A stretch of DNA of 64,000 bases. Origin: Pseudomonadota bacterium (GTDB taxonomy: Bacteria > Pseudomonadota > Alphaproteobacteria > Rhizobiales > Phreatobacteraceae). The position numbers and the translations under genes are program-made. Positions within the stretch are counted from its first letter, which is position 1; each line of letters opens with the position of its first letter. Location of the stretch: the NCBI GenBank assembly GCA_020161695.1, contig JAIUOO010000014.1, forward strand, positions 62,001 through 126,000, read 5' to 3'. Below the pieces are notes generated by a model, which did not search any database, was not told the origin of the DNA, and was given only the letters and a program-made list of their open reading frames with translations. Below are positions 2,487-51,285 of this stretch, piece by piece.

Positions 2487-3668
2487 ATGACAGGCTCGTC
2501 CGACACCAAGCGGCTCTCCGAGCGCACGCGGCTCGTCATCGGAGGGCGCAAGCCGGCCGAGCAGTTCGGTTTCGTCAATACGCCGATCTATCGCGGCTCG
2601 ACCGTGCTCTACCCGACCTACGAGGAACTGAAGGCCCGCCGCCAGAAGTTCGTCTACGGAACCAAGGGAACACCGACGATTCTGGCGCTGGAAGAGGCCT
2701 GGGCCGACATTTCCGGCGCCGCCGGCACCGTTCTGGTGCCGTCGGGCCTCGCCGCCATCGTGGTGGCGCTCCAGTCCTGCCTCAAGGCCGGCGACCACAT
2801 GCTGGTGACGGATTCGGTCTATCGCCCGACCCGGCAATATGCCGACGGCCTGCTGAAGCGCTTCGGCGTCGAGACCACCTATTACGACCCGCTCGTCGGC
2901 GCGGGAATCGCCGATCTGATGCGGCCAAATACCACGGTGGTCTTCACCGAGGCGCCGGGGTCGCAGAGCTTCGAGATGCAGGACATCCCGGCCATCGCCG
3001 AGGCCGCCCATGCTCGCGGTGCCGTGGTGGTGATGGACAATACCTGGGCGACGCCCCTGCTCTTCCCGCCGCACGAGCGCGGCGTCGACATCGCCATCGA
3101 GGCGGGCACCAAATATCTCGGCGGCCATTCCGACCTGCTGATGGGCCTCGTCACCGCCAATGAGCGCTGCTGGCCGGCGCTGCGCCAGACCTACGACCTG
3201 ATGGCGATCGGCGCCGGGCCGGAGGACACGTTCCTGGCGCTGCGCGGCCTGCGCACGATGAAGCTGCGGCTGGACGAGGCGGGCCGGCAGGGCATGGCCA
3301 TGGCCGAGTGGCTCCAGTCCCGGCCGGAGGTGAAGACCCTGCTGCACCCCGCCTTCCCTTCCCACCCCGGCCACGCCATCTGGAAGCGCGACTTCAAGGG
3401 CGCCTCCGGCCTGTTCTCGGTCATCCTGCATCCCGTATCCGAGACCCAGCTCGCCGCCTTCCTCGACGGGCTGGAGCTGTTCGGCATGGGCTATTCCTGG
3501 GGCGGCTACGAGAGCCTCGTCGTGCCGTTCGACTGCGCGCCCTACCGCACGGCGACGACGTGGAACCCCGGCGGCACGGCCCTGCGCTTCCAGATCGGCC
3601 TGGAGGACGTGAAGGACCTACAGGCGGACCTCGCCGCCGGCTTCGAACGGATGAAGACGGTTTCCTGA
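2487..3668 (+). CDS. metC: Cystathionine beta-lyase
   Basis: Cytosolic PLP enzyme of the Cys/Met-metabolism family (393 aa) that cleaves cystathionine to homocysteine, ammonia and pyruvate in methionine synthesis. The PLP-binding lysine is expected at K209 in the block EAGTKYLGGHSDLLMG. The substrate and cofactor block YGTKGTPT lies near residue 57, and DNTWATP near 184-190. The family also includes gamma-synthases and gamma-lyases, but the ending GYSWGGYESLVVPF and TWNPGGTALRFQIGLED is typical of alphaproteobacterial MetC. It is transcribed away from aapJ and ends 4 nt from the convergent PAP2 gene. The upstream gap has an imperfect GACCCCGC/GCGGGGGTC hairpin (2356-2398); no SAM-II riboswitch was recognised. 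Confidence 0.92.
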   Translation: MTGSSDTKRLSERTRLVIGGRKPAEQFGFVNTPIYRGSTVLYPTYEELKARRQKFVYGTKGTPTILALEEAWADISGAAGTVLVPSGLAAIVVALQSCLKAGDHMLVTDSVYRPTRQYADGLLKRFGVETTYYDPLVGAGIADLMRPNTTVVFTEAPGSQSFEMQDIPAIAEAAHARGAVVVMDNTWATPLLFPPHERGVDIAIEAGTKYLGGHSDLLMGLVTANERCWPALRQTYDLMAIGAGPEDTFLALRGLRTMKLRLDEAGRQGMAMAEWLQSRPEVKTLLHPAFPSHPGHAIWKRDFKGASGLFSVILHPVSETQLAAFLDGLELFGMGYSWGGYESLVVPFDCAPYRTATTWNPGGTALRFQIGLEDVKDLQADLAAGFERMKTVS

Positions 3669-3672
3669 AGCC

Positions 3673-4539
3673 TCAGCCGCGCAGGCGGCGGCCGAAGGTC
3701 GCGAAGGCCTGCCAGAGCCTCCGGCGCGGCATGGGCATCGGCGCATGCCCGCCGCCGGGGAGGAAGACCAGACCGCGGCGCGCGAACCAGTTGCGCGTCA
3801 TGACGGTGAACCAGGCGCCCCAGAGCGAGCCGACCACGATGTCGGTGAAATAGTGCGCGTCGACGCCGACCCGGCTGAAGGCGACGACGGCCGCCACGAA
3901 CAAGAGCGGCCAGCGCCAGCGGGGAAACAGGAAGGCGAAGGACAGCGCGATGGCGAAGGCCGTCTGCGAGTGGCCCGAGGGGAAGCTCGCATAGGACGCC
4001 TGCCAGCTCGGAAACTGGAAGTGCAGCGCGCCGAACTCCTCGAAATAGCGCGGCCGCCCGCGTGCGATGATGCGCTTGACGATGGAGATGATCAGGCCCG
4101 AGCCGCCGACGGCGATGAAAACGAAGGCCAGTCGCGCGCAGAGCGCCAGCACCACCCGGTCGGCGAAGCGGCGCACTGGCGGCATCACCGCCAGGATCGC
4201 GAGAATCGCCACGCCGCTCGGGATCAGCACCCAGCCCGACTTGCCGATATCGGTGACGATCTGGAAGAATCGCGCCTGTTCCGGCGAGAGCAGGTGGCGG
4301 CTGCCCTGGATAAACGGATCGAGATAGGCCATGCCCGCCAGCACCAGCGCGAGGCCGAAGGCGACCGCGCAGAACCACTCGGCCCAGCTCGGGAACAGCG
4401 CGAAGACCGGCATCGTCACCGGCCGCGGCGGGCGAACGAGCCGGCGCACGCCATCGACGAAGGCGGCCGCGAACAGGTCGAGGCGCGCGCGCAGGCCCTC
4501 GGCAGGCCCCGGATGAGTGTCGATGCGTGTTTCCGTCAT
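3673..4539 (-). CDS. PAP2-family membrane phosphatase
   Basis: Integral membrane phosphatase of the PAP2/acid-phosphatase superfamily, 288 aa. All three signature motifs are present in order: K155-x6-R162-P163 (KRIIARGRP), PSGH at 187-190, and S222-R223-x5-H229-x3-D233 (SRVGVDAHYFTD). H190 and H229 are the expected catalytic histidines. Five to six hydrophobic helices surround them, as in LpxE, PgpB and undecaprenyl-PP phosphatases. The substrate is probably a lipid phosphate (lipid A, phosphatidylglycerol phosphate or undecaprenyl-PP), but the sequence does not choose. It is convergent with metC and divergent from the VUT gene. Start ATG at 4539. Confidence 0.88.
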   Translation of the reverse strand: MTETRIDTHPGPAEGLRARLDLFAAAFVDGVRRLVRPPRPVTMPVFALFPSWAEWFCAVAFGLALVLAGMAYLDPFIQGSRHLLSPEQARFFQIVTDIGKSGWVLIPSGVAILAILAVMPPVRRFADRVVLALCARLAFVFIAVGGSGLIISIVKRIIARGRPRYFEEFGALHFQFPSWQASYASFPSGHSQTAFAIALSFAFLFPRWRWPLLFVAAVVAFSRVGVDAHYFTDIVVGSLWGAWFTVMTRNWFARRGLVFLPGGGHAPMPMPRRRLWQAFATFGRRLRG

Positions 4540-4688
4540 AGTCCGGAGACGGTCCTTTCGTTACCGGTCGCTCGCTTCATTCTAGAGCATTCGTCCGGTC
4601 GCGTCAGGGCGTGCGCCGCACAAAGCACGTGACGGCAGGCGCTATCGGGTGTAGACGGCCGCGTTTCCAACACTCTGCTTGAGGTCCG

Positions 4689-5219
4689 ATGTTCGGTTAC
4701 TTCGCCCTCACCGGCTTCATCGCCACCATTCCCGCCGCCAACTGGCTGATCGGCAATGTCGGCACGACCTGCGTGCCCAACGGCCCCTGCCTCATCCCGG
4801 TCGGCTTCGGGCTGATGGCGCCGAGCGGCGTGCTGATGATCGGCCTCGCCCTCGTCCTGCGCGACGTCGTCCAGCGCACACTCGGCATCGGCTGGTCACT
4901 CGGCGGCATCGTCATGGGCGCCGCGCTGTCATGGTCCGTCGCGGCGCCGTCGCTGGCGCTCGCCTCGGCCGCGGCCTTCCTGTTCTCCGAACTTGCCGAT
5001 ACCGCCGTCTATACGCCGCTGGCCAAGCGCCGGCTGATCACCGCGGTGCTCGCCTCCAGCCTCGTCGGCACGGCGATCGACAGCGCGCTGTTCCTGTGGC
5101 TCGCCTTCGGCTCGGTCGCGCTGCTGCCCGGCCTCGTCCTCGGCAAGGTCTGGATGGTGTCGATGGCGACGCTGGTGCTCTGGCTCAACCGTCGCCGGTG
5201 GCAGGATACGGCGGCCTGA
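4689..5219 (+). CDS. VUT-family (YhhQ/DUF165-like) membrane transporter
   Basis: A 176-aa protein with about five hydrophobic segments. It has the VUT/YhhQ-type signatures VLRDVVQRTLG (about residues 57-67) and FLFSELADTAVYTPL (about 98-112). Characterised relatives are queuosine-precursor (preQ0/preQ1) transporters of the inner membrane; this substrate is inferred from family only. It is shorter than E. coli YhhQ (about 220 aa) but starts cleanly at ATG 4689. It stands alone between the divergent PAP2 gene and the convergent Bug-type protein, whose stop is 10 nt away. No riboswitch was recognised in the 149-nt leader. Confidence 0.8.
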   Translation: MFGYFALTGFIATIPAANWLIGNVGTTCVPNGPCLIPVGFGLMAPSGVLMIGLALVLRDVVQRTLGIGWSLGGIVMGAALSWSVAAPSLALASAAAFLFSELADTAVYTPLAKRRLITAVLASSLVGTAIDSALFLWLAFGSVALLPGLVLGKVWMVSMATLVLWLNRRRWQDTAA

Positions 5220-5229
5220 CGCCGGGCTT

Positions 5230-6255
5230 CTACTCGATCCGGACTTTCGTCTCCTCGACAACCTTCTTCCAGAAGGCGATCTCGTCCCTCAGGGACCGGG
5301 CGAATTCCGCCGGTCCCTTGTTGACGACATCGAAGCCGACATCGGCCAGCCGCTGCCGCGCGGCCGGCTGCTGCAGGAATTCCGAGACTTCGCGGTTGAT
5401 GGTGCTCGCCACCTCGTCCGGCGTGCCGCGCGGCGCCATGATGCCGACCCAGGTGTCGCCGGTGACTTCAGGGAAACCCTGCTCCGCCATGGTCGGCACG
5501 TTCGGCAGCAGCGGCGAGCGCCGCTCGCCGGTGACCGCCAGCGCCTTCAGCCGGCCGCCCGCGATCATCGGTCCCGCCGAAGCCATGGTCGTCCAGGCGC
5601 TCGAAATCTGGTTGCCGACGACGGCCTGGATCGCCGGCCCCGCACCGGGGAACGTCACCGCCACCATGTCCAGCTTCTGCGTCACCTTCAGCCGCTCGGC
5701 GAGCAGATGCCCCTGCGTGCCGAGGCCGCCATGGGCATAGTTCTGGTTCGGCCGCGCCCTCAGATCCGCGACGAAGTCGCGGGCATTGCCGGCCGCGACC
5801 GAGGGATGAACGGAGAGCACGTGGGTCGACGAGACCGACTGGTTGATCGGCACGAAATCGGCGACCGGATCATATTGCAGGTTCGAGAAGATCGACGGAT
5901 TGACCGCGTGGGTCGAGAGCGCGAACAGCAGCGTGTAGCCGTCGGGCGCGGAGCGCGCCGCCTGCGCCGTGCCGCGATTGCCGGTCGCGCCGGCGACATT
6001 CTCGACGACGAACTGCTGGCCGAGCTTCTGCGACAGGTGCTGGCAGGCGAGCCGGGCATAGACGTCGACCGTGCCGCCCGGGGCGAAGGTGACAATGGCG
6101 CGGACGGGGCGGGTTGGATAGGCCTGCGCCCTCGCGATGCGTGGCGACGTCATCAGCGCGAGCGAGCCGCCGGCAAGAGCCACCAGCCGTCGCCGGCTGA
6201 GCATGGCCGCGTCCGGCGGCTGGGGGAATCGGTCGCCAGCAGGAGCCTTGCCCAT
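5230..6255 (-). CDS. Bug-family (TctC-like) periplasmic solute-binding protein
   Basis: A 341-aa extracytoplasmic receptor of the Bug/TctC type. The N-terminus has a twin-arginine-like signal (SRRRLVALAGGSLALM) cleaved near ARA-QAYPTRP. The mature start YPTRPVRAIVTFAPGGTVDV is the diagnostic Bug ligand loop. PDGYTLLFA and PNVPTMAEQGFPEVTGDTWVG also match the family. The start at 6255 has a GGGAAGGGAAA RBS; an internal Met at 6204 would still leave the signal intact. No TctA/TctB membrane subunits lie nearby, so it is an orphan receptor, which is common for this family. Ligand unknown (usually a carboxylate). Confidence 0.88.
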   Translation of the reverse strand: MGKAPAGDRFPQPPDAAMLSRRRLVALAGGSLALMTSPRIARAQAYPTRPVRAIVTFAPGGTVDVYARLACQHLSQKLGQQFVVENVAGATGNRGTAQAARSAPDGYTLLFALSTHAVNPSIFSNLQYDPVADFVPINQSVSSTHVLSVHPSVAAGNARDFVADLRARPNQNYAHGGLGTQGHLLAERLKVTQKLDMVAVTFPGAGPAIQAVVGNQISSAWTTMASAGPMIAGGRLKALAVTGERRSPLLPNVPTMAEQGFPEVTGDTWVGIMAPRGTPDEVASTINREVSEFLQQPAARQRLADVGFDVVNKGPAEFARSLRDEIAFWKKVVEETKVRIE

Positions 6256-6371
6256 CGGTCGGTTTCCCTTCCCCTGACGCCGGCCGCGCGCGGGCCGAAG
6301 GCGTCAGAGTGCCAGCGGGAATGGACTGTGGCAATCGGCGGGGCGAAACCGTCCGCCAGGCAGGAGAATGG

Positions 6372-6445
6372 CGATCCCGGCAGGACTCGAACCTGCGACC
6401 AACAGCTTAGAAGGCTGTCGCTCTATCCGGCTGAGCTACGGGACC
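6372..6445 (-). tRNA. tRNA-Arg (UCU)
   Basis: The minus strand folds as a full cloverleaf of 74 nt: acceptor GGTCCCG/CGGGATC with discriminator G, D-arm GCTC...GAGC, anticodon stem ACAGC/GCTGT with loop CTTCTAA (anticodon TCT), and T-arm GCAGG-TTCGAGT-CCTGC. CCA is not encoded. It lies 116 nt upstream, in sense, of the Bug-type gene. Confidence 0.96.
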
Positions 6446-6476
6446 GGAACTGCCTGCTTATTCCGCTGATCGGCGC

Positions 6477-6782
6477 TCAGTGCGTCCAGGCGCCGACCCG
6501 GTTGAACTTGAAATTGTCGGAATAGGCGGCCATGCGCCGCTTCGGCTCCTCGGCCTCCGACACCTGATAGGCGATGCCGTTGCGCTCGGCATAGGCGATC
6601 GCCTCGTCTCTCGTGTCGAATTCCAGCCGCACCTGCTGGCGCATGTCGGTGGAGCTCGTATAGCCCATCAGCGGCTCGACGGTGCGCGCCACTTCCGGCT
6701 CGTAGTCGAGGCGCCAGCGCTCGGTCTTGGCGAGGCCCGACTGCATGGCCGTCTTGGCGGGCTTGTAGATGCGGGCGACCAC
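6477..6782 (-). CDS. NDUFS4-like Complex I accessory subunit
   Basis: A 101-aa protein matching the ETC Complex I subunit family (18-kDa NDUFS4). It has the N-terminal ARIYKPAKTAMQSGLAKT, then WRLDYEP, PLMGYTSSTDMRQQVRLEF (residues about 38-56) and the closing YSDNFKFNRVGAWTH. NDUFS4 is an accessory subunit of NADH:ubiquinone oxidoreductase shared by mitochondria and alphaproteobacteria. It helps assembly and stability of the matrix arm. Start ATG at 6782. The gene sits alone between two tRNA genes on the same strand, away from any nuo operon. Confidence 0.9.
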   Translation of the reverse strand: MVARIYKPAKTAMQSGLAKTERWRLDYEPEVARTVEPLMGYTSSTDMRQQVRLEFDTRDEAIAYAERNGIAYQVSEAEEPKRRMAAYSDNFKFNRVGAWTH

Positions 6783-6800
6783 GGCAACCTCCGGACTTGG

Positions 6801-6874
6801 TCGGGGCGACTGGATTCGAACCAGCGACCTAGAGTACCCAAAACTCTCGCGCTACCAGGCTGCGCTACGCCCCG
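6801..6874 (-). tRNA. tRNA-Pro (UGG)
   Basis: A 74-nt cloverleaf on the minus strand: acceptor CGGGGCG/CGCCCCG with discriminator A, D-arm GCGC...GCGC, anticodon stem AGAGT/ACTCT with loop TTTGGGT (anticodon TGG), and T-arm GCTGG-TTCGAAT-CCAGT with one G-T pair. CCA is not encoded. It lies 18 nt upstream of the NDUFS4-like gene and may be cotranscribed with it. Confidence 0.96.
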
Positions 6875-6931
6875 TCCGCCCCGCAATAGCCGAGGCGGTG
6901 GCGGGCGGCAAGCCGCGCGGCCTGCTCGCCC

Positions 6932-7387
6932 TCACCCCGCGAAGAAGGGATGCTCGACGCGGTCGCCGGCGGCAAGGCCGAGGCGGCGCGCCGTGCCGGC
7001 GATGACCTCCAGCACGCCCTTCACCGGGCCGCCGGACGAGATGGTCGCCTCGGAATGGGGCGTGGTGTTCTCGGCGATATGGCGGATCTGCCCGTTCGCG
7101 CGGATGAAGATCATGTCGAGCGGGATGTAGGTGTTCTTCATCCACATCGAGACGTCGGTCTCGCGCGAGCCGAAGTCGAACAGCATGCCGCGCCCGTCGG
7201 GCAGTTCACGGCGGAACATCAGGCCGCGCGACCGCGATTCCGGCGTGTTGGCGATCTCGAGCTGGAAGACGTGACGGTCGCCCGTCCGCGTGACGATGGT
7301 CAGGCGGTTCATCTCGCCCCGCGCGAAAGCGGGACGGGCGGCGACAAGGGCTGCTGAAGCGAGGAACAGGCGGCGATCGATCATCAT
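6932..7387 (-). CDS. DUF192-family exported protein
   Basis: A 151-aa protein with an N-terminal signal (MMIDRRLFLASAALVAARPAFA; twin Arg, cleavage near 22), then a DUF192 domain: FQLEIANTPESRSRGLMFRRELP, GMLFDF, VSMWMKNTYIPLDMIFI, and the C-terminal VLEVIAGTARRLGLAAGDRVEH. The domain is a small beta fold of unknown biochemical role, usually exported. Start ATG at 7387. It is followed on the same strand by tRNA-Pro and preceded by the cold-shock gene 115 nt away. Confidence 0.87.
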   Translation of the reverse strand: MMIDRRLFLASAALVAARPAFARGEMNRLTIVTRTGDRHVFQLEIANTPESRSRGLMFRRELPDGRGMLFDFGSRETDVSMWMKNTYIPLDMIFIRANGQIRHIAENTTPHSEATISSGGPVKGVLEVIAGTARRLGLAAGDRVEHPFFAG

Positions 7388-7501
7388 GGCCGGCAGGCTA
7401 GATCAAATTCCGGTTCGGTTGGACCGAATTTTCCGTGACCCTGCCCTCTGCGCAGGATCGCCCGGCGAGGCGTCGCCAGCCTCGCCTGACAAAGGCGCTC
7501 G

Positions 7502-8110
7502 TCAGTGCGAGGCCGGAAAGGCGACGCCATCGGGCCGCACTTCGGCGGCCATCAGGCCTTTGGAGCCGTCGCCGAAACGCACCAGCACCCACTGGCCCGG
7601 CCGCAGTTCGGTCATGCCGTAGCGGCGCAGCGTTTCCATGTGCACGAAGATGTCCGGCGTGCCGGGTCCGCGCGACAGGAAGCCGAAGCCGCGCAGCCGG
7701 TTGAACCACTTCACCTCGGCCCGCTCGAGACCGCTGGTCGGCACCACGGAAACATGGGTGCGCGGCGGCGGCAGCTGCGCCGGGTGAACGGCGGTCGAAT
7801 CATCCATGGAGAGGACGCGGAAGGTCTGGAGACCGCGCGAACGCGCCGTCGCCTCGACGACGATCCGAGCACCCTCATGGGCGGTCTGGAAACCGTCGCG
7901 CCTGAGGCTGGTGACGTGGAGGAGAACATCCGGCCCGCCGCCGTCGGGAACGATGAATCCGTACCCCTTGGCGACATCGAACCATTTGATGGTGCCGGCA
8001 ACCTCGACCAGATCGCCGGGCACCTCGTCGACCGAGGTCTGCCCCTCGGCACGCATGTGCAGGCTGTTCTTGCTGCCCAGGCCGTCCGGATCGGACCCGT
8101 CGGACGTCAT
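7502..8110 (-). CDS. Cold-shock protein with two cold-shock domains
   Basis: A 202-aa cytosolic nucleic-acid-binding protein. Two CSDs are visible: CSD1 at about 37-103 (GTIKWFDVAKGYGFIVPD with DVLLHVTSL) and CSD2 at about 131-193 (AEVKWFNRLRGFGFLSR with DIFVHMETL). Each keeps the RNP1-like K-G-Y/F-G-F and RNP2-like hydrophobic-H motifs. A short proline-containing linker joins them. Tandem-CSD proteins of about 200 aa are typical of Hyphomicrobiales. ATG 8110 is chosen over an upstream in-frame Met at 8203, which would add a basic non-CSD tail; GTG codons at 8113 and 8119 are alternatives. The gene follows the sirtuin on the same strand after a 156-nt leader. Confidence 0.9.
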   Translation of the reverse strand: MTSDGSDPDGLGSKNSLHMRAEGQTSVDEVPGDLVEVAGTIKWFDVAKGYGFIVPDGGGPDVLLHVTSLRRDGFQTAHEGARIVVEATARSRGLQTFRVLSMDDSTAVHPAQLPPPRTHVSVVPTSGLERAEVKWFNRLRGFGFLSRGPGTPDIFVHMETLRRYGMTELRPGQWVLVRFGDGSKGLMAAEVRPDGVAFPASH

Positions 8111-8266
8111 CACACTCACCGCCGCTCTATCGGGATCGTTGGCCTCGATCCCACCCCGCCTTGATTCTCTACTAAAAGGATAACACCGGCCCCGGCCCCG
8201 CAAAGACCAAATTTGAGGTAGTCCACCATTTCGCGAGCGTTTTGGTGCACGCCTTATTGACGTCGT

Positions 8267-10713: not shown

Positions 10714-13700
10714 CTAGAGCTCCATCACCGCCTGCACGCCCGGCACCGCCTTGATAGCCCCGGCGATCTGCGGCGAGACCGCGAAGCGGCCGGGCAGCTT
10801 CACCTCGACCTCGCTCGCTGCATCGGCGAGGCGCAGGACGAGGCTCACCTCGCCGTCGCCCTTGGCCGGCAGGCGGCGGGCGATGCTGTCGACCGCCGCC
10901 ATGTCCTCGACGAAGACGCGGAAGCCCTTCTGGACGCGCACGGCCGCCTCGTCGAGCGGCTCGACCGACTGGATGCGCACGCGGACGTCCTCACCCTGAA
11001 GCTCGGCGCCGACCGCCATCAGCACCGCCTTGCCCGGCTCGAGCAGGTCGCGATAGAGCGCCAGCCCCTCGGAGAACAGCACCGCCTCGTAGTGGCCGGA
11101 GGCGTCCGACAGCGTCACGATGCCCATCTTGTTGCCGGTCTTGGTGCGCCGCTCCTGCCGGGCGGTGACCACGCCGGCGAGCCGGCCGGCGCTGGCGCCG
11201 CGCCGAACGCTCCGGGAGAACTCCACGAAAGGCTCGATGCGCAGGCGCCTGAGCGATTCCTGATAGTCGTCGAGCGGGTGGCCGGAGAGGAAGAAGCCGA
11301 TGGCGCGGTATTCCTCGTCCAGTTTCTGCGCCGGCAGCCAGGGCTCGACCTGCGGCAGGCGGATGGCGGCGGGGCCGCCGCCGCCGAACAGTTCGTTCTG
11401 GCCGCTGGCCCGCCCCTGCGCATGGAGCTGCGCCTCGGCCAGCACCTGCTCGACGGCCGCGAAGGCGCGGGCGCGATTGCCCTCCAGCGCGTCGAAGGCG
11501 CCGGCGGATGCGAGATTCTCCAGCGTCTTGCGATTCAGCACCTTCGGATTGATGCGATGGGCGAAATCGGCGAGGTCCGTGAACGGCCGGTCGCCGCGCG
11601 CCGCCACGATCGCCTCGACCGCCTGCGTGCCGACGCCCTTCACCGCCGCCAGCGCGTAGAGGATCCTGCCCTCGACCACGTCGAAATGGACGCCGGAGCG
11701 GTTGACGCAGGGCGGCTCGACCGTCAGTCCCAGGCGCACCGCCTCGCGGCGGAATTCCGAGAGTTTGTCGGTATTGGACAGGTCGAGCGTCATCGACGCC
11801 GCCAGGAATTCGACGGGATAGTTCGCCTTCAGATAGGCCGTATGGTAGGAGACCAGCGCATAGGCTGCCGCGTGGCTCTTGTTGAAGCCGTAGTCGGCGA
11901 ACTTGGCGAGCAGGTCGAAGATCTCGTCGGCCTTGGCCTTGGCGATGTTCCGCTCGACGCAGCCGGTGACGAAGCGCTCGCGCTGCTTGTCCATCTCCGC
12001 CTTGATCTTCTTGCCCATGGCGCGGCGCAGCAGATCAGCCTCGCCGAGCGAATAGCCGGACAGTATCTGGGCGGCCTGCATCACCTGTTCCTGGTAGACG
12101 ATGATGCCGTGGGTCTCGGCCAGCACCTGCTCCAGAAGAGGGTGCGGATATTCGGCCTCTTCAAGCCCGTGCTTGCGCGCGCAATAGACGGGGATGTTGG
12201 CCATCGGGCCCGGACGGTAGAGAGCCACCAGCGCGATGATGTCCTCGAACCGGCTCGCCTTCATCTCGACGAGCGCCTTGCGCATGCCGGCGCTTTCCAC
12301 CTGGAATACGCCGACCGTCTCGCCGCGCGCCATCATCTCGTAGCTCTTGGCATCGTCCAGCGGGATCGCCGCCAGATCGATGTCGATGCCGCGCAGCTTG
12401 ATCAGGTCCACCGCCTTCTGCAGCACGGTCAGCGTCTTCAGGCCGAGGAAGTCGAACTTCACGAGGCCGGCCTGTTCCACCCACTTCATGTTGAACTGGG
12501 TGACCGGCATGTCGGTCTTGGGATCGCGGTAGAGCGGCACCAGCTCGACCAGCGGCCGGTCGCCGATGACGAGGCCCGCCGCATGGGTCGAGGCATGGCG
12601 GTTGAGGCCCTCCAGCTTCACCGCGATGTCGAACAGCCGGCCGACGACGGGGTCCTCGTCGCGCGCCGCCTGCAGCTTCGGCTCGCCCTCGATGGCCTTG
12701 TCCAGCGTGATCGGCGCGGCCGGGTTCTGCGGCACCAGCTTGCAGAGCTTGTCGACCTGGCCGTAGGGCAGTTCCAGCACGCGGCCGACATCGCGCAGCA
12801 CGCCGCGCGCCTGCAGCGTGCCGAAGGTGATGATCTGCGCGACCTGGCTGCGGCCGTAGCGCTGCTGGACGTAGCGGATCACCTCGTCGCGCCGGTCCTG
12901 GCAGAAATCGATGTCGAAATCCGGCATCGACACGCGTTCGGGATTGAGGAAGCGCTCGAACAGCAGCTGGAAGCGCAGGGGGTCGAGGTCGGTCACGGTG
13001 AGCGCGTAGGCGACCAGCGAGCCGGCACCCGAACCGCGGCCCGGACCGACGGGAATGTCCTGCGCCTTGGCCCATTTGATGAAGTCCGAGACGATCAGGA
13101 AGTAGCCCGGGAATTTCATGCGCTCGATGATCGAGAGCTCGAAGTCGAGCCGCTTATGATAGTCCGCCTCGGTCAGGTCCGGCGCCGGGCCATGGGCGGC
13201 GAGCCGACGCGCCAGCCCCTCGCGGGCCTGCCGCGCCAGTTCCGCCGCCTCGTCGATGGCAGCGCCGCCCGGCTCCAGCGTGAAGCTCGGCAGGATCGGC
13301 TTGCGCGTGCGCGGCCGGTAGTGGCACCGCCGCGCGATCTCGATGGTCGACTCGATCGCCTCCGGCAGGTCGGCGAAGAGCGCGATCATCTCGGCCTGCG
13401 TCTTGAACCGGTGCTCCGAGGTCAGGCGGCGGCGGTCGGGATCGGAGAGGATGCGCCCCTCGGCGATGCTGATCAGCGCGTCGTGACTCTCGTAGTCACC
13501 GAGCGAGCCGAAATAGCACTGATTGGTCGCCACCAGCGGCAGGCCGCGGGCATAGGCCTCGTCGATCAGGTCGGCCTCGACCGCCCGCTCGCCATCGAGC
13601 CCATGGCGCTGCAGCTCGACATAAAGCGCGTCGCCGTAGATATCGGAAAGGCTGGCGAGACGCGCCCGCGCGAGCGCCCCCTGCCCGTCCCGGAACGCCT

Positions 13701-14148
13701 GGTCGACCGGCCCGCCGGGCCCGCCGGTGAGAGCGATCAGGCCGCCGGCATGGGCGGAGAGCGCTGTCACCGGCACCGCGACCTCGCCGGTATCGCCGCT
13801 CTCCATGAAGGCCATGGAGGTCAGCGCCATGAGGTTGCGGTAGCCCTCTTCACTGGCGGCATAGAGCGCGATGGACGGAGGCGTCTGCGGCAGGCCCGGC
13901 CGGCGCGGATCCGTGGCCCGGTCGGCGAAATCCACGTTGAGGGTCAGGCCGGCGATCGGCTGGATGCCGCTGCCGGCGAGCTTGTCGGAGAGCTCCAGCG
14001 CGCCGAACAGGTTGTTCGTATCGGTCACCGCCAGCGCCGGCATGCGGTCGTGCTGGGCAAGCTTGGCGAGCTTGGCGATGACCAGCGCGCCCTCCAGCAG
14101 CGAGTAGGAGGAATGAACGCGCAGATGCACGAAGCGGCGATCCGTCAC
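10714..14148 (-). CDS. dnaE: DNA polymerase III alpha subunit
   Basis: The replicative polymerase catalytic subunit, 1144 aa. It has an N-terminal PHP domain (HLRVHSSYSLLEGAL, then VTDTNNLFGA), the C-family palm with VGPGRGSGAGSLVAY (about 367-381) and catalytic aspartates D410 and D412 in MPDFDIDFCQD. The thumb and fingers include a GVFQVES block, the helix-hairpin-helix region GVGTQAVEAIVAARG follows, and a C-terminal OB fold and tau-binding tail close the protein. Length matches DnaE1 rather than ImuC/DnaE2. It starts at GTG 14148 with RBS AAGGAGAGG. Upstream on the same strand, 110 nt away, is a LexA-box micro-ORF, so SOS control by read-through is possible. Confidence 0.97.
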   Translation of the reverse strand: MTDRRFVHLRVHSSYSLLEGALVIAKLAKLAQHDRMPALAVTDTNNLFGALELSDKLAGSGIQPIAGLTLNVDFADRATDPRRPGLPQTPPSIALYAASEEGYRNLMALTSMAFMESGDTGEVAVPVTALSAHAGGLIALTGGPGGPVDQAFRDGQGALARARLASLSDIYGDALYVELQRHGLDGERAVEADLIDEAYARGLPLVATNQCYFGSLGDYESHDALISIAEGRILSDPDRRRLTSEHRFKTQAEMIALFADLPEAIESTIEIARRCHYRPRTRKPILPSFTLEPGGAAIDEAAELARQAREGLARRLAAHGPAPDLTEADYHKRLDFELSIIERMKFPGYFLIVSDFIKWAKAQDIPVGPGRGSGAGSLVAYALTVTDLDPLRFQLLFERFLNPERVSMPDFDIDFCQDRRDEVIRYVQQRYGRSQVAQIITFGTLQARGVLRDVGRVLELPYGQVDKLCKLVPQNPAAPITLDKAIEGEPKLQAARDEDPVVGRLFDIAVKLEGLNRHASTHAAGLVIGDRPLVELVPLYRDPKTDMPVTQFNMKWVEQAGLVKFDFLGLKTLTVLQKAVDLIKLRGIDIDLAAIPLDDAKSYEMMARGETVGVFQVESAGMRKALVEMKASRFEDIIALVALYRPGPMANIPVYCARKHGLEEAEYPHPLLEQVLAETHGIIVYQEQVMQAAQILSGYSLGEADLLRRAMGKKIKAEMDKQRERFVTGCVERNIAKAKADEIFDLLAKFADYGFNKSHAAAYALVSYHTAYLKANYPVEFLAASMTLDLSNTDKLSEFRREAVRLGLTVEPPCVNRSGVHFDVVEGRILYALAAVKGVGTQAVEAIVAARGDRPFTDLADFAHRINPKVLNRKTLENLASAGAFDALEGNRARAFAAVEQVLAEAQLHAQGRASGQNELFGGGGPAAIRLPQVEPWLPAQKLDEEYRAIGFFLSGHPLDDYQESLRRLRIEPFVEFSRSVRRGASAGRLAGVVTARQERRTKTGNKMGIVTLSDASGHYEAVLFSEGLALYRDLLEPGKAVLMAVGAELQGEDVRVRIQSVEPLDEAAVRVQKGFRVFVEDMAAVDSIARRLPAKGDGEVSLVLRLADAASEVEVKLPGRFAVSPQIAGAIKAVPGVQAVMEL

Positions 14149-14258: not shown

Positions 14259-14357
14259 TCACATGCCCTGGAAGGCCTGCGCCCACAAGGTCACCATGCC
14301 GGTGAACAGCCCGAGCGCGACGAGCGATGCCATGTCTTCCATGAACTGCCGGATCAT
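14259..14357 (-). CDS. 32-aa membrane micropeptide under a LexA box (SidA-like candidate)
   Basis: A 33-codon ORF between lolD and dnaE, on the strand of both. It begins MIRQFMEDMASLVALG and ends WAQAFQGM, with one hydrophobic helix at about residues 10-28 after a short charged N-terminus. The RBS AAGGGAGG (14363-14370) is ideally spaced. The LexA box lies 33 nt further upstream inside a plausible promoter. This architecture (about 30 aa, single helix, SOS control) is that of Caulobacter SidA, a division inhibitor. No sequence homology to SidA is claimed. It could instead be a leader peptide for dnaE. It is real as an ORF with good translation signals; the function is inferred. Confidence 0.7.
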   Translation of the reverse strand: MIRQFMEDMASLVALGLFTGMVTLWAQAFQGM

Positions 14358-14390
14358 TGCGGCCTCCCTTGTTGTCGATGGAGGCAGCAT

Positions 14391-14405
14391 GTTCCACTTT
14401 TGTTC
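14391..14405 (-). promoter_or_regulatory. LexA (SOS) box, perfect GTTC-N7-GTTC
   Basis: On the plus strand GTTC (14391-14394), seven bases, then GTTC (14402-14405). In the direction of the micro-ORF this reads GAACAAAAGTGGAAC. This is the exact direct-repeat consensus of alphaproteobacterial LexA. It fills the spacer of a possible promoter (TTGCCA at 14409-14414, CATGCT at 14386-14391, 17-nt spacing). A second, degenerate copy (GAAC-N7-CAAC) lies at 14422-14436. Confidence 0.75.
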
Positions 14406-14472
14406 TCATGGCAAGCACCCGGAACAAACTGGCAACCCATATGGTTGACGCAACGTGAATGCTCGAATGAGG

Positions 14473-15201
14473 TCAGACTTCGACGATCAGCCCGTCGCGA
14501 ATGGTGACGCGCCGGTCCATCCGCGCCGCCAGATCCATGTTGTGCGTGGCGATCACCGCCGCCAGCCGCGAGGCGCGGACCAGCTGGGTCAGCGCCTGGA
14601 ACACGTGGTCGGCCGTCTTCGGGTCGAGATTGCCGGTCGGCTCGTCCGCCATGAGGATGCGCGGCGCATTGGCGACCGCGCGGGCGATGGCGACGCGCTG
14701 CTGCTCGCCGCCGGAGAGTTCGGCGGGCCGGTGGCTGACGCGTTCGGCGAGGCCGAGATAGCCGAGCAGTTCGGCGGCCCGCGTCCGCGCCTCCTTCTGG
14801 CCGAGGCCGCGGATCATCTGCGGCAGCACGACATTCTCCAGCGCGGAGAATTCGGGAAGCAGGTGGTGGAACTGGTAGACGAAGCCGATCTCCAGCCGCC
14901 GGATGCGCGTGCGGTCCTTGTCGGCGAGCTTCGAGGTGGCGGTGCCGCCGATATAGACCTCGCCGGCATCGGGCGCCTCCAGCAGTCCCGCGACATGGAG
15001 CAGCGTCGACTTGCCGGTGCCGGAGGGCGCGATCAGCGCGACGCTCTCGCCCGGCCAGACCGCGAAATCCGCGCCTTTCAGGATTTCCAGCGCGCCGCCC
15101 GCCTGCTTGTAGCGGCGCTCGACAGCCTTCAGCCAGAGCACCGGCGGCTCCTCGGCGGAAGCAGCCGCGCCGGCCACGCCCCGTTCGACCTGTTCACTCA
15201 T
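14473..15201 (-). CDS. lolD: Lipoprotein-releasing ABC transporter ATPase LolD
   Basis: A 242-aa ABC ATPase that powers release of lipoproteins from the inner membrane. Walker A is PSGTGKST (59-66, K64), Q-loop Q110, signature LSGGEQQRV (162-170) and Walker [11 protein letters not shown] (D186, E187). The LolD/MacB-type block [23 protein letters not shown] (split here by the Q-loop) precedes it. An N-terminal extension of about 20 residues rich in Ala and Glu is not part of the fold. It overlaps lolC/E by 8 nt, so the two are translationally coupled. The micro-ORF and dnaE follow downstream. Confidence 0.93.
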
Positions 15202-16462
15202 AGCGGAGGGCCTCGACCGGATCGAGCTTGGCAGCGCGCCAGGACGGATAGAGCGTGGCGAGCAGCGACAGGGTCAGCGCCATGATCAGCACGGCGAAGG
15301 TCTCGCCGGTGGACATGTCGGCGGGGATCTGGGTGAGGAACCTGACCGTCGGGTCCCACAGCGTGGTGCCGGTCGCCCAGGAGACGAATTCCTGGATCTT
15401 CTCAATGTTGAGGCAGACGATCACCCCGAGCGCGAAGCCCGCGAGTGTTCCGACCACGCCGATGGACGCGCCCGTGATCAGGAAGATGCGCATGATCGAG
15501 CCGCGCGTCGCACCCATGGTGCGCAGGATCGCGATGTCGCTGCCCTTGTCCTTCACCAGCATGATCAGGCCGGAAATGATGTTGAGCGCCGCCACCAGCA
15601 CGATCAGCGTGAGGATCATGAACATGACGTTGCGCTCGACCTGCAGCGCCGAGAAGAAGGTCGCGTTGCGCTGGCGCCAGTCGACGATGAAGACCGGCCG
15701 CTCGACCGCCTCCGACACCGCCCGCCGGTACTGGTCGATCCGGTCGGCATTGTCGGTATAGACCTCGACGGAGGAGGCATCGCCCTCGCGGTTGAAATAG
15801 GCCTGCGCCTCGGTGAACGGCATGAACACGAAGGCGGAATCGTATTCGGTCATGCCGACCTCGAAGATCGCCACGATCGGATAGGCCTTGATCCGGGGCG
15901 TCATGCCCATCGGCGTCGGCGCGCCGCGCGGCGAGATCAGCGTCAGCGAATCCCCGAGCCGGAGCGACAGCTGGTTGGCGAGGCGCTGGCCGACCATGAC
16001 GCCCTCGGACGTGTCGAAGTCCTCGAGGCCGCCCTGCTTGATCGACGACGAGATCAGCGGCAGGCGCCTGAGATCCTCGGCCCGCATGCCGCGCACGATG
16101 GCGCCGCCGCCGTTGAACGGCGAGGATGCCAGCGCCTGTCCTTCCACGATCGGTGCTGCAAGCCGCACGCCCTGCACGCGGCTCAGCCGCTGGGCGACCT
16201 CGGCGAAATCGGTCAGCGGCGTATCGATCGGCTGGAGCACCATATGGCCCTGCACGCCGAGGATCTTGCCGAGCAGTTCCTTGCGGAAGCCGTTCATCAC
16301 CGCCATCACGATGATCAGCGTCGCGACGCCCAGCATGATGCCGATGAAGGAAAAGCCGGCGATGACCGAGATGAAGCCCTCCTTCCGCCGCGCGCGGAGG
16401 TAGCGCAGCGAGAGCATCCATTCGAAGGCGGAGAAGGGTTTTGTTCCGGTGGCGTCTGACAT
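15194..16462 (-). CDS. lolC: Lipoprotein-releasing ABC transporter permease LolC/LolE
   Basis: A 422-aa inner-membrane subunit of the Lol system. It has an N-terminal helix (residues about 24-48, [19 protein letters not shown]), a large periplasmic domain (about 50-270), then three helices near 275-300, 320-350 and 375-400, the standard FtsX/MacB-like layout. Alphaproteobacteria usually have one permease serving as both LolC and LolE. The motif [20 protein letters not shown] and the ending [16 protein letters not shown] are typical. Start ATG at 16462. It heads the lolCD pair. The region upstream ends in a fragment of a polysaccharide deacetylase gene. Confidence 0.93.
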
Positions 16463-49887: not shown

Positions 49888-51285
49888 ATGTCCGACCTCG
49901 CCGATCTCTCCGCAGCCGACCTCTCCAAAGCCTACAAGTCGAAGAAACTGTCCCCGGTGGAGGTGACCAAAGCGGTTCTCGCCCGGATCGAGGCGACGGA
50001 ACCGCACCTGAACGCCATGTACATCGTCTCGGCGGAAGCAGCGCTGAAGGCCGCCAAGTCGGCCGAACGCCGCTGGAACCGCGGCAAGGCGCTGTCCGCC
50101 CTCGACGGCGTGCCGGTGACGGTGAAGGAGAACCTGATGACGGCGGGCGATCCCGCCCCCATCGGCGTTCCCATCGCCGACATGACGCCGAAGGAGGCGG
50201 ATTCGCCGGTTCCCGCGCGCCTGCGCGAGGCCGGCGCGGTCATTCTCGGCAAGACCACCATGCCCGACTACGGCATGCTGTCGGCGGGACTCTCCTCGCT
50301 GCATGGCGTGACCCGCAACCCCTGGAACCTCGCCAAAAACCCGGCGGGCTCCTCCTCCGGCGCGGGCGCTGCGGGCGCGGCCGGCTACGGGCCGCTGCAT
50401 GTCGGCACCGATATCGGCGGCTCGATCCGCCTGCCGGCCGCCCATTGCGGCCTGTTCGGCCTGAAGCCCTCGCTTGGCCGCGTGCCGATCAACCCGCCAT
50501 TCCTCGGCCGTGTCGCCGGTCCCATGACCCGCACGGTGCGCGACGGCGCCATGCTGATGAACGTCATCGCCAGGCCCGACGCCCGCGACTACCGCAGCCT
50601 GCCCTATGCGCGGACCGACTACACACGGAACCTCGAGGCGCTGCCGCTCAAGGGCCTGAAGATCGGCGTCATCACCGCCATGCAGGCGGGCCTGCCGGCC
50701 GATGCCACGATCATCCGGGCGGTGAAGGCGGCCGCCAAGGCGCTGGAGGCGGAAGGCGCCATCGTCGAGCCGGTGCAGGGCTTCCTTACCCACGAGATGC
50801 TCGACGGCATCTGCCGCTTCTTCGAGGCGCGCTCCTATGGCGACGTCGCCAAGCTCAAGGCCGAGCAGAAGCGCCAGCTGCTGCCCTATATCGTGGAATG
50901 GGCGACCTGGCGCGCCCGCAAGTTCACCGGCGACGACGTGATGAGCGGCTATCTCGCCGTGCAGGCCATGCGCGAGGCCGCCATCGCCACCAGCGAGCCC
51001 TACGACTACATCCTCTCGCCGGTCACCTGCCCGGTCAGCTATTCCGCCGAGGCGCACTCGCCGACCGACGATCCGCACCGGGCTCTGGACCACATTCCCT
51101 TCACCGTGGCCGCCAATATGAGCGAGCAGCCGGCGGCCAGCATCAACTGGACCTTCGCGCGCAACGGCATGCCGGTCGGCGTGCAGGTGATCGGCAAGCG
51201 CTTCGACGATGCCGGCGTGATGAAGCTCTGCGCCTCGCTGGAAGTGCTCAGGCCGCAGCAGAAGCCCTGGCCGGTGGTGGGTTAG
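49888..51285 (+). CDS. Amidase (amidase-signature family)
   Basis: A 465-aa amidase-signature hydrolase. The Ser-cisSer-Lys triad is seen: K80 (VPVTVKENL), cis-Ser S156 (NPAGSSSGAG) and nucleophile S179 (GTDIGGSIRLP). N-terminal helices (LSAADLSKAYKSKKLSPVEV) and the C-terminal QPAASINWTFARNGMPVGVQVIGKRFDD fit. Natural substrate unknown; GatA is excluded since gatCB are absent and the protein is shorter. It lies between the carboxylase alpha subunit (divergent) and the SDR (convergent). ATG 49888 agrees with family starts; the preceding frame belongs to the antisense of mccA. Confidence 0.88.
   Translation: MSDLADLSAADLSKAYKSKKLSPVEVTKAVLARIEATEPHLNAMYIVSAEAALKAAKSAERRWNRGKALSALDGVPVTVKENLMTAGDPAPIGVPIADMTPKEADSPVPARLREAGAVILGKTTMPDYGMLSAGLSSLHGVTRNPWNLAKNPAGSSSGAGAAGAAGYGPLHVGTDIGGSIRLPAAHCGLFGLKPSLGRVPINPPFLGRVAGPMTRTVRDGAMLMNVIARPDARDYRSLPYARTDYTRNLEALPLKGLKIGVITAMQAGLPADATIIRAVKAAAKALEAEGAIVEPVQGFLTHEMLDGICRFFEARSYGDVAKLKAEQKRQLLPYIVEWATWRARKFTGDDVMSGYLAVQAMREAAIATSEPYDYILSPVTCPVSYSAEAHSPTDDPHRALDHIPFTVAANMSEQPAASINWTFARNGMPVGVQVIGKRFDDAGVMKLCASLEVLRPQQKPWPVVG

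Follow-up and report, generated by a model that had tools for sequence, protein, structure and literature searches.

A candidate SidA-type division inhibitor encoded upstream of dnaE behind a predicted LexA site in Hyphomicrobiales

Does the short open reading frame that precedes dnaE in a Phreatobacteraceae genome encode a functional peptide, and if so, what might a membrane peptide under putative SOS control do at this place? The question arose from a first-pass annotation of the window, by which we mean the whole 64-kb stretch of DNA that was analysed. It described a 32-aa ORF with a ribosome-binding site, a LexA box in the promoter spacer and dnaE as the next gene, all of which could be confirmed in the sequence (Table 1). 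For the function it proposed either a functional analogue of the Caulobacter division inhibitor SidA or an SOS leader that couples dnaE to DNA damage.

Table 1. Positions in the window of the micropeptide ORF, its predicted control elements and its neighbours
Feature	Position	Strand	Detail	Basis
SidA-like membrane micropeptide ORF	14259..14357	minus	32 aa, MIRQFMEDMASLVALGLFTGMVTLWAQAFQGM then stop	translation
Shine-Dalgarno	14363..14370	minus	AAGGGAGG, 5 nt ahead of ATG	sequence
Putative -10	14386..14391	minus	CATGCT (CATNAT in relatives)	sequence; box-centred alignment
LexA box	14391..14405	minus	GAACAAAAGTGGAAC (GTTC-N7-GTTC on the plus strand)	sequence; conserved in relatives
Putative -35	14409..14414	minus	TTGCCA (TTGAC in most relatives)	sequence; box-centred alignment
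dnaE (dnaE1), replicative DNA polymerase III alpha	10714..14148	minus		Pfam; TIGR00594, 1181 bits
ABC transporter ATPase, lolD type, upstream neighbour	14473..15201	minus		Pfam ABC_tran
FtsX/MacB-type permease, lolC/E type, partner of the ATPase	15194..16462	minus		Pfam

The reading frame and its conservation

On the minus strand the start region reads AAGGGAGG-ccgca-ATG, with the ATG at 14357. An alternative in-frame ATG at 14390 would give 43 aa, but only the start at 14357 is both conserved and preceded by a ribosome-binding site. The ORF ends 110 nt ahead of the dnaE start at 14148, on the same strand, and the lolD-type ATPase gene is its upstream neighbor in most congeners as well. The single hydrophobic helix ascribed to the peptide is borne out by a mean hydropathy of 1.53 over 19 residues and by a structure prediction that gives one helix over residues 2-31 (pLDDT 95); its charges are one Arg and two acidic residues. 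Searches of Pfam, PHROGs and NCBIfam with the window peptide assigned it to no family. A gene of 32 codons is easily missed by gene callers, and the curated libraries that were searched do not contain this one.

The reading frame is conserved in close relatives, where its absence would have spoken against the ORF: the peptide is present in 11 of the 11 other genomes of the genus that were searched, all of them Phreatobacter or close to it as judged by dnaE, at 72-100% identity. Substitutions in the Phreatobacter group show the synonymous bias that the first-pass annotation had named as a check, with a pN/pS of 0.20 in frame, whereas the two other frames give 2.1 and 6.3; of 31 codons, 26 vary at the third position and 3 at the second. 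In-frame values are similarly low in Bradyrhizobium (0.17) and Caulobacteraceae (0.25), the other frames of the three groups ranging from 0.85 to 6.3. By the pattern of its substitutions, the window ORF is a real gene under purifying selection.

The same genome contains a second TIGR00594 gene, dnaE2, on contig C26, where a LexA box lies directly ahead of imuA and dnaE2 follows further 3'. This is the usual SOS mutagenesis cassette (2817-8237 of the contig) and is separate from the dnaE1 of the window.

The LexA box and its promoter

A direct repeat of this alphaproteobacterial LexA type is not in itself unusual in 64 kb: the window has three matches to GTTC-N7-GTTC where 1.3 are expected, and 13 of 100 shuffled sequences also reach three. 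The two other matches (49999-50013 and 50065-50079, minus strand) are chance occurrences within a coding gene and have GC-rich spacers. Conservation therefore had to decide, and the box gains its significance because it is conserved in relatives and because the same type of box stands ahead of the SOS genes of this genome. It precedes recA, lexA (two boxes), the divergent uvrA/ssb pair and imuA, which by sequence places the window box in the organism's LexA regulon; a yifB-type gene and a ligase-associated DEXH helicase gene are preceded by it as well.

The box lies where such a site would be expected to act, since a repressor bound in a promoter spacer obstructs RNA polymerase. Between the putative -35 and -10 elements of the window, the spacer measures 17 nt and contains the box, base 14391 being common to the box and the -10. 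The hexamers themselves are weak (TTGCCA and CATGCT), and a strict consensus promoter scan reported no promoter at the site. Relatives aligned on the box read TTGAC-aaaa-GAACAAAACAAGAAC-ATNAT and carry TTGAC-N17/18-CATNAT, again with the box inside the sigma-70 spacer. The mismatch-free repeat that the first-pass annotation described in the spacer of a possible promoter stands, and relatives keep it between better hexamers.

Additional boxes occur at several of these loci. Seven congeners (L003-L007, L011 and L012) have a second box, in the opposite writing (GTTC-N7-GTTC), about 30 nt upstream of the main one, of which the window retains only a degenerate trace; in Bradyrhizobium and its relatives a second box lies 18 nt downstream of the main box instead. 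Such double boxes may tighten repression.

Relation to Caulobacter sidA and spread of the family

In the genome of Caulobacter vibrioides (G517), a 29-aa ORF lies directly upstream of dnaE behind LexA boxes. We take this genome to be Caulobacter from the 100% identity of its PopZ to C. crescentus PopZ, an assignment backed by the match of the ORF to NCBIfam NF033228, the curated SidA model (72.4 bits over the full length, cut-off 35), which identifies the ORF as SidA. SidA is an SOS-induced inner-membrane peptide of 29 aa (PMC4211646), and the published locus numbers, CC1926 for dnaE (PMC1839093) and CCNA_02004 for sidA (PMC10769358), fit the sidA-dnaE slot. The window ORF resembles sidA in several respects. 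It immediately precedes dnaE and is read from the same strand, has a predicted LexA site in its promoter and encodes a peptide of about 30 aa with one predicted hydrophobic membrane helix.

The two peptides also have a sequence core in common, [E/D]-x-x-A-[L/F]-x-[S/A]-[V/L]-x-x-F. Profile-profile comparison (hhalign) of the order against Caulobacteraceae gave a probability of 93.9 and an E value of 1.5e-7 over 24 ungapped columns. With the order profile, whose members were chosen using an iterated profile that had taken in Caulobacteraceae peptides, 22 of 24 Caulobacteraceae peptides score above all but at most one of 500 of their own shuffles, and with an independent profile 14 of the 24 reach p<=0.05. 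The window peptide on its own does not differ significantly from its shuffles against the Caulobacteraceae profile (p 0.08), so the link to SidA runs through the family, at which level the hhalign and shuffle results indicate homology. Unlike SidA, the window peptide lacks the FVWMMC stretch and has LF-TGMVTLWAQ, its C-terminus is a few residues longer, and its host belongs to a different bacterial order. It also lies outside the curated model: the window peptide gives no match to it, and none of 199 genomes of the order passes the 35-bit cut-off, which 1 of 14 control genomes exceeds. For this reason we file the window ORF as a divergent homologue in the SidA slot and not as a certified SidA equivalog. 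The proposal of a functional analogue is thereby supported and, as far as the shared slot, the profile match and the conserved frame can tell, strengthened to one of homology.

How far does the family extend? The 32-aa query alone gives weak matches in nine further families of the order. Their E values (0.001 to 0.9) carry little weight by themselves; in all cases the match immediately precedes dnaE and is itself preceded by a LexA box. A class-wide whole-genome search with the small first profile was too weak to go further and returned mostly chance matches outside the order. The best of these (L026) was rejected as lying within a response-regulator gene, and another (L022) was spurious, within a 450-aa frame. 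The survey was for this reason confined to the regions upstream of dnaE; with three duplicate loci removed, it covered 99 different genomes from the order, 85 from the class and 30 from Caulobacteraceae. In these regions a profile built from the first 14 peptides matched 70 small ORFs on the forward strand at E<1, whereas the reverse strand gave no match. With the iterated profile (E<0.01, at most 500 nt from dnaE), members were detected in 46 of 99 genomes of the order, 27 of 30 Caulobacteraceae and 12 of the 85 others. Genome-wide, a family-profile search places a member in 101 of 199 genomes and 53 of 99 genera of the order, the carriers including Bradyrhizobium, Ancylobacter, Microvirga, Bosea, Kaistia, Methylopila, Chelatococcus, Pseudolabrys, Martelella (with the peptide MIDILRDVAAFASISLFVLTLSLIVTAF), Aurantimonas and a Bartonella MAG; the Hyphomicrobium loci examined are without a member.

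Peptide and box are conserved together, as the first-pass annotation had suggested they should be if the gene were genuine. A perfect LexA box is present in 72 of 85 peptide-bearing regions versus 20 of 129 regions without the peptide (odds ratio 30), with a p of 6e-25 that serves only as a guide, the 214 loci being related by descent. Within the survey the ORF and dnaE are 27 to 326 nt apart, a gap that widens to about 600-680 nt in two congeners, L007 and L008, and in some genomes a copy lies kilobases from dnaE or on another contig. The latter is the case in G700 and G706, which may hold relocated sidA-like genes. Microvirga solisilvae (L333) has two LexA-like boxes upstream of dnaE, oriented oppositely to those of its congeners, and no family ORF was found there, possibly as a result of local rearrangement or loss.

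Candidate function in cell division

Taken together, sequence and analogy make it likely that the window ORF is a LexA-controlled, divergent homologue of sidA that delays cytokinesis through the septal complex. LexA bound to the box between the -35 and -10 elements would repress the promoter of the ORF; upon DNA damage, RecA-stimulated cleavage of LexA would allow the 32-aa peptide to be made, and the peptide would insert as a single helix into the inner membrane, where it would hold the septal peptidoglycan synthase complex (FtsW/FtsI/FtsN) inactive, so that cytokinesis would be delayed until repair. SidA is an interaction partner of FtsW and holds the FtsW/I/N complex in an inactive state (PMC4211646), and a recent low-confidence model places it on transmembrane helix 7 of FtsW (PMC13396833). 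The present analysis itself yielded the reality of the gene, the LexA-type box, the slot and the family-level homology, and from Caulobacter we infer the FtsW target and the division arrest in Hyphomicrobiales. In the FtsW of the window genome both F145 and A246 are present, the two residues at which substitutions in Caulobacter FtsW suppress SidA; the comparison covers few species, and the conservation may have other reasons. SOS-induced inhibition of FtsW and septation is accordingly put forward, by analogy, as the most likely function.

The principal alternative is that the short ORF, or its LexA-controlled transcript, mainly sets the expression of dnaE and that the peptide itself acts on no target. 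In its favor, the ORF was always on the strand of dnaE in the survey, no terminator-like site was seen between the two, and the S. meliloti authors cited below proposed uORF roles for sORFs in 5'-UTRs. A leader would be expected to keep a constrained spacing and an obligate linkage to dnaE; the family shows neither, with gaps of 27 to over 600 nt and some copies far away or unlinked. In addition, the amino-acid sequence of the membrane helix is conserved across families, and at the corresponding position Caulobacter has an ORF whose product has been proven to inhibit division. The leader proposal of the first-pass annotation thus emerges as the weaker one: as a sole function it fits badly because the spacing varies, copies are unlinked and the peptide is conserved, and we regard it as improbable. 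Read-through that raises dnaE is possible as an extra role and would be compatible with that of the peptide. Less probable still is an SOS peptide of the TisB/DinQ sort, which would lower the proton motive force and slow growth without binding the divisome. Peptides of this type are under antisense RNA control and depolarise the membrane. Small single-helix SOS peptides do exist in E. coli (DinQ, PMC3567139), but both the slot and the resemblance at family level favor SidA, whose target is FtsW, and the charges of the window peptide are by inspection unlike those of TisB, its helix not being cationic. SulA is a cytoplasmic FtsZ inhibitor of about 170 aa, and an inhibitor of that type was rejected on size and location, the window peptide being 32 aa, hydrophobic and without a Pfam match. 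That a chance ORF sits beside a chance LexA-like box, as the insignificance of the box by itself might suggest, has next to no probability given the conserved frame, the family profile, the co-occurrence with the box and the empty reverse-strand control.

Small division inhibitors of comparable design are known elsewhere. YneA (Bacillus), SosA (Staphylococcus) and ChiZ (Mycobacterium) are, to our knowledge, not homologous to the window peptide; they belong to other lineages and have a LysM or an extended C-terminus. Like the SidA type, they are small SOS-induced single-helix inhibitors of late division and have been modelled on FtsW (PMC13396833). DidA of Caulobacter (71 aa) is likewise a small, DNA-damage-induced single-helix division inhibitor, but it is longer, SOS-independent (DriD) and binds FtsN (PMC4211646). 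Closer to the window ORF is sORF25 of Sinorhizobium meliloti, a translated small ORF that Ribo-seq detected in the 5'-UTR of dnaE1, thus in the same place in a related family; it was missing from older annotations and found by ribosome profiling or proteomics, and its authors discuss a possible uORF and mention neither SidA nor LexA in the text (PMC10117765). Judged by its position, sORF25 is probably the same gene as the window ORF, and if so there is evidence of translation in a relative. Our literature search, with subscription papers (the original SidA paper included) outside its scope, found no paper linking the sORF upstream of dnaE to SidA and none naming an SOS division inhibitor in Hyphomicrobiales.

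The curated SidA model covers none of the 199 Hyphomicrobiales genomes sampled, and the peptide family is a candidate for the SOS division inhibitor of this order. Candidate hosts are Bradyrhizobium, Ancylobacter, Microvirga, Bosea, Kaistia, Methylopila, Martelella, the Bartonella MAG and their relatives, and probably S. meliloti, where the family would explain a translated sORF ahead of dnaE1. Its alignment offers a way to find the SidA residues that touch FtsW, and the possibly relocated copies in G700 and G706 could separate the role of the peptide from that of a dnaE leader. A broader picture, which we consider tentative and rather doubtful, is that a single LexA-controlled transcript both blocks septation and raises dnaE, and that a checkpoint of the SidA type is ancestral in much of Alphaproteobacteria. 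By analogy with Caulobacter, the rhizobia-related bacteria that carry the peptide probably use the division brake of SidA.
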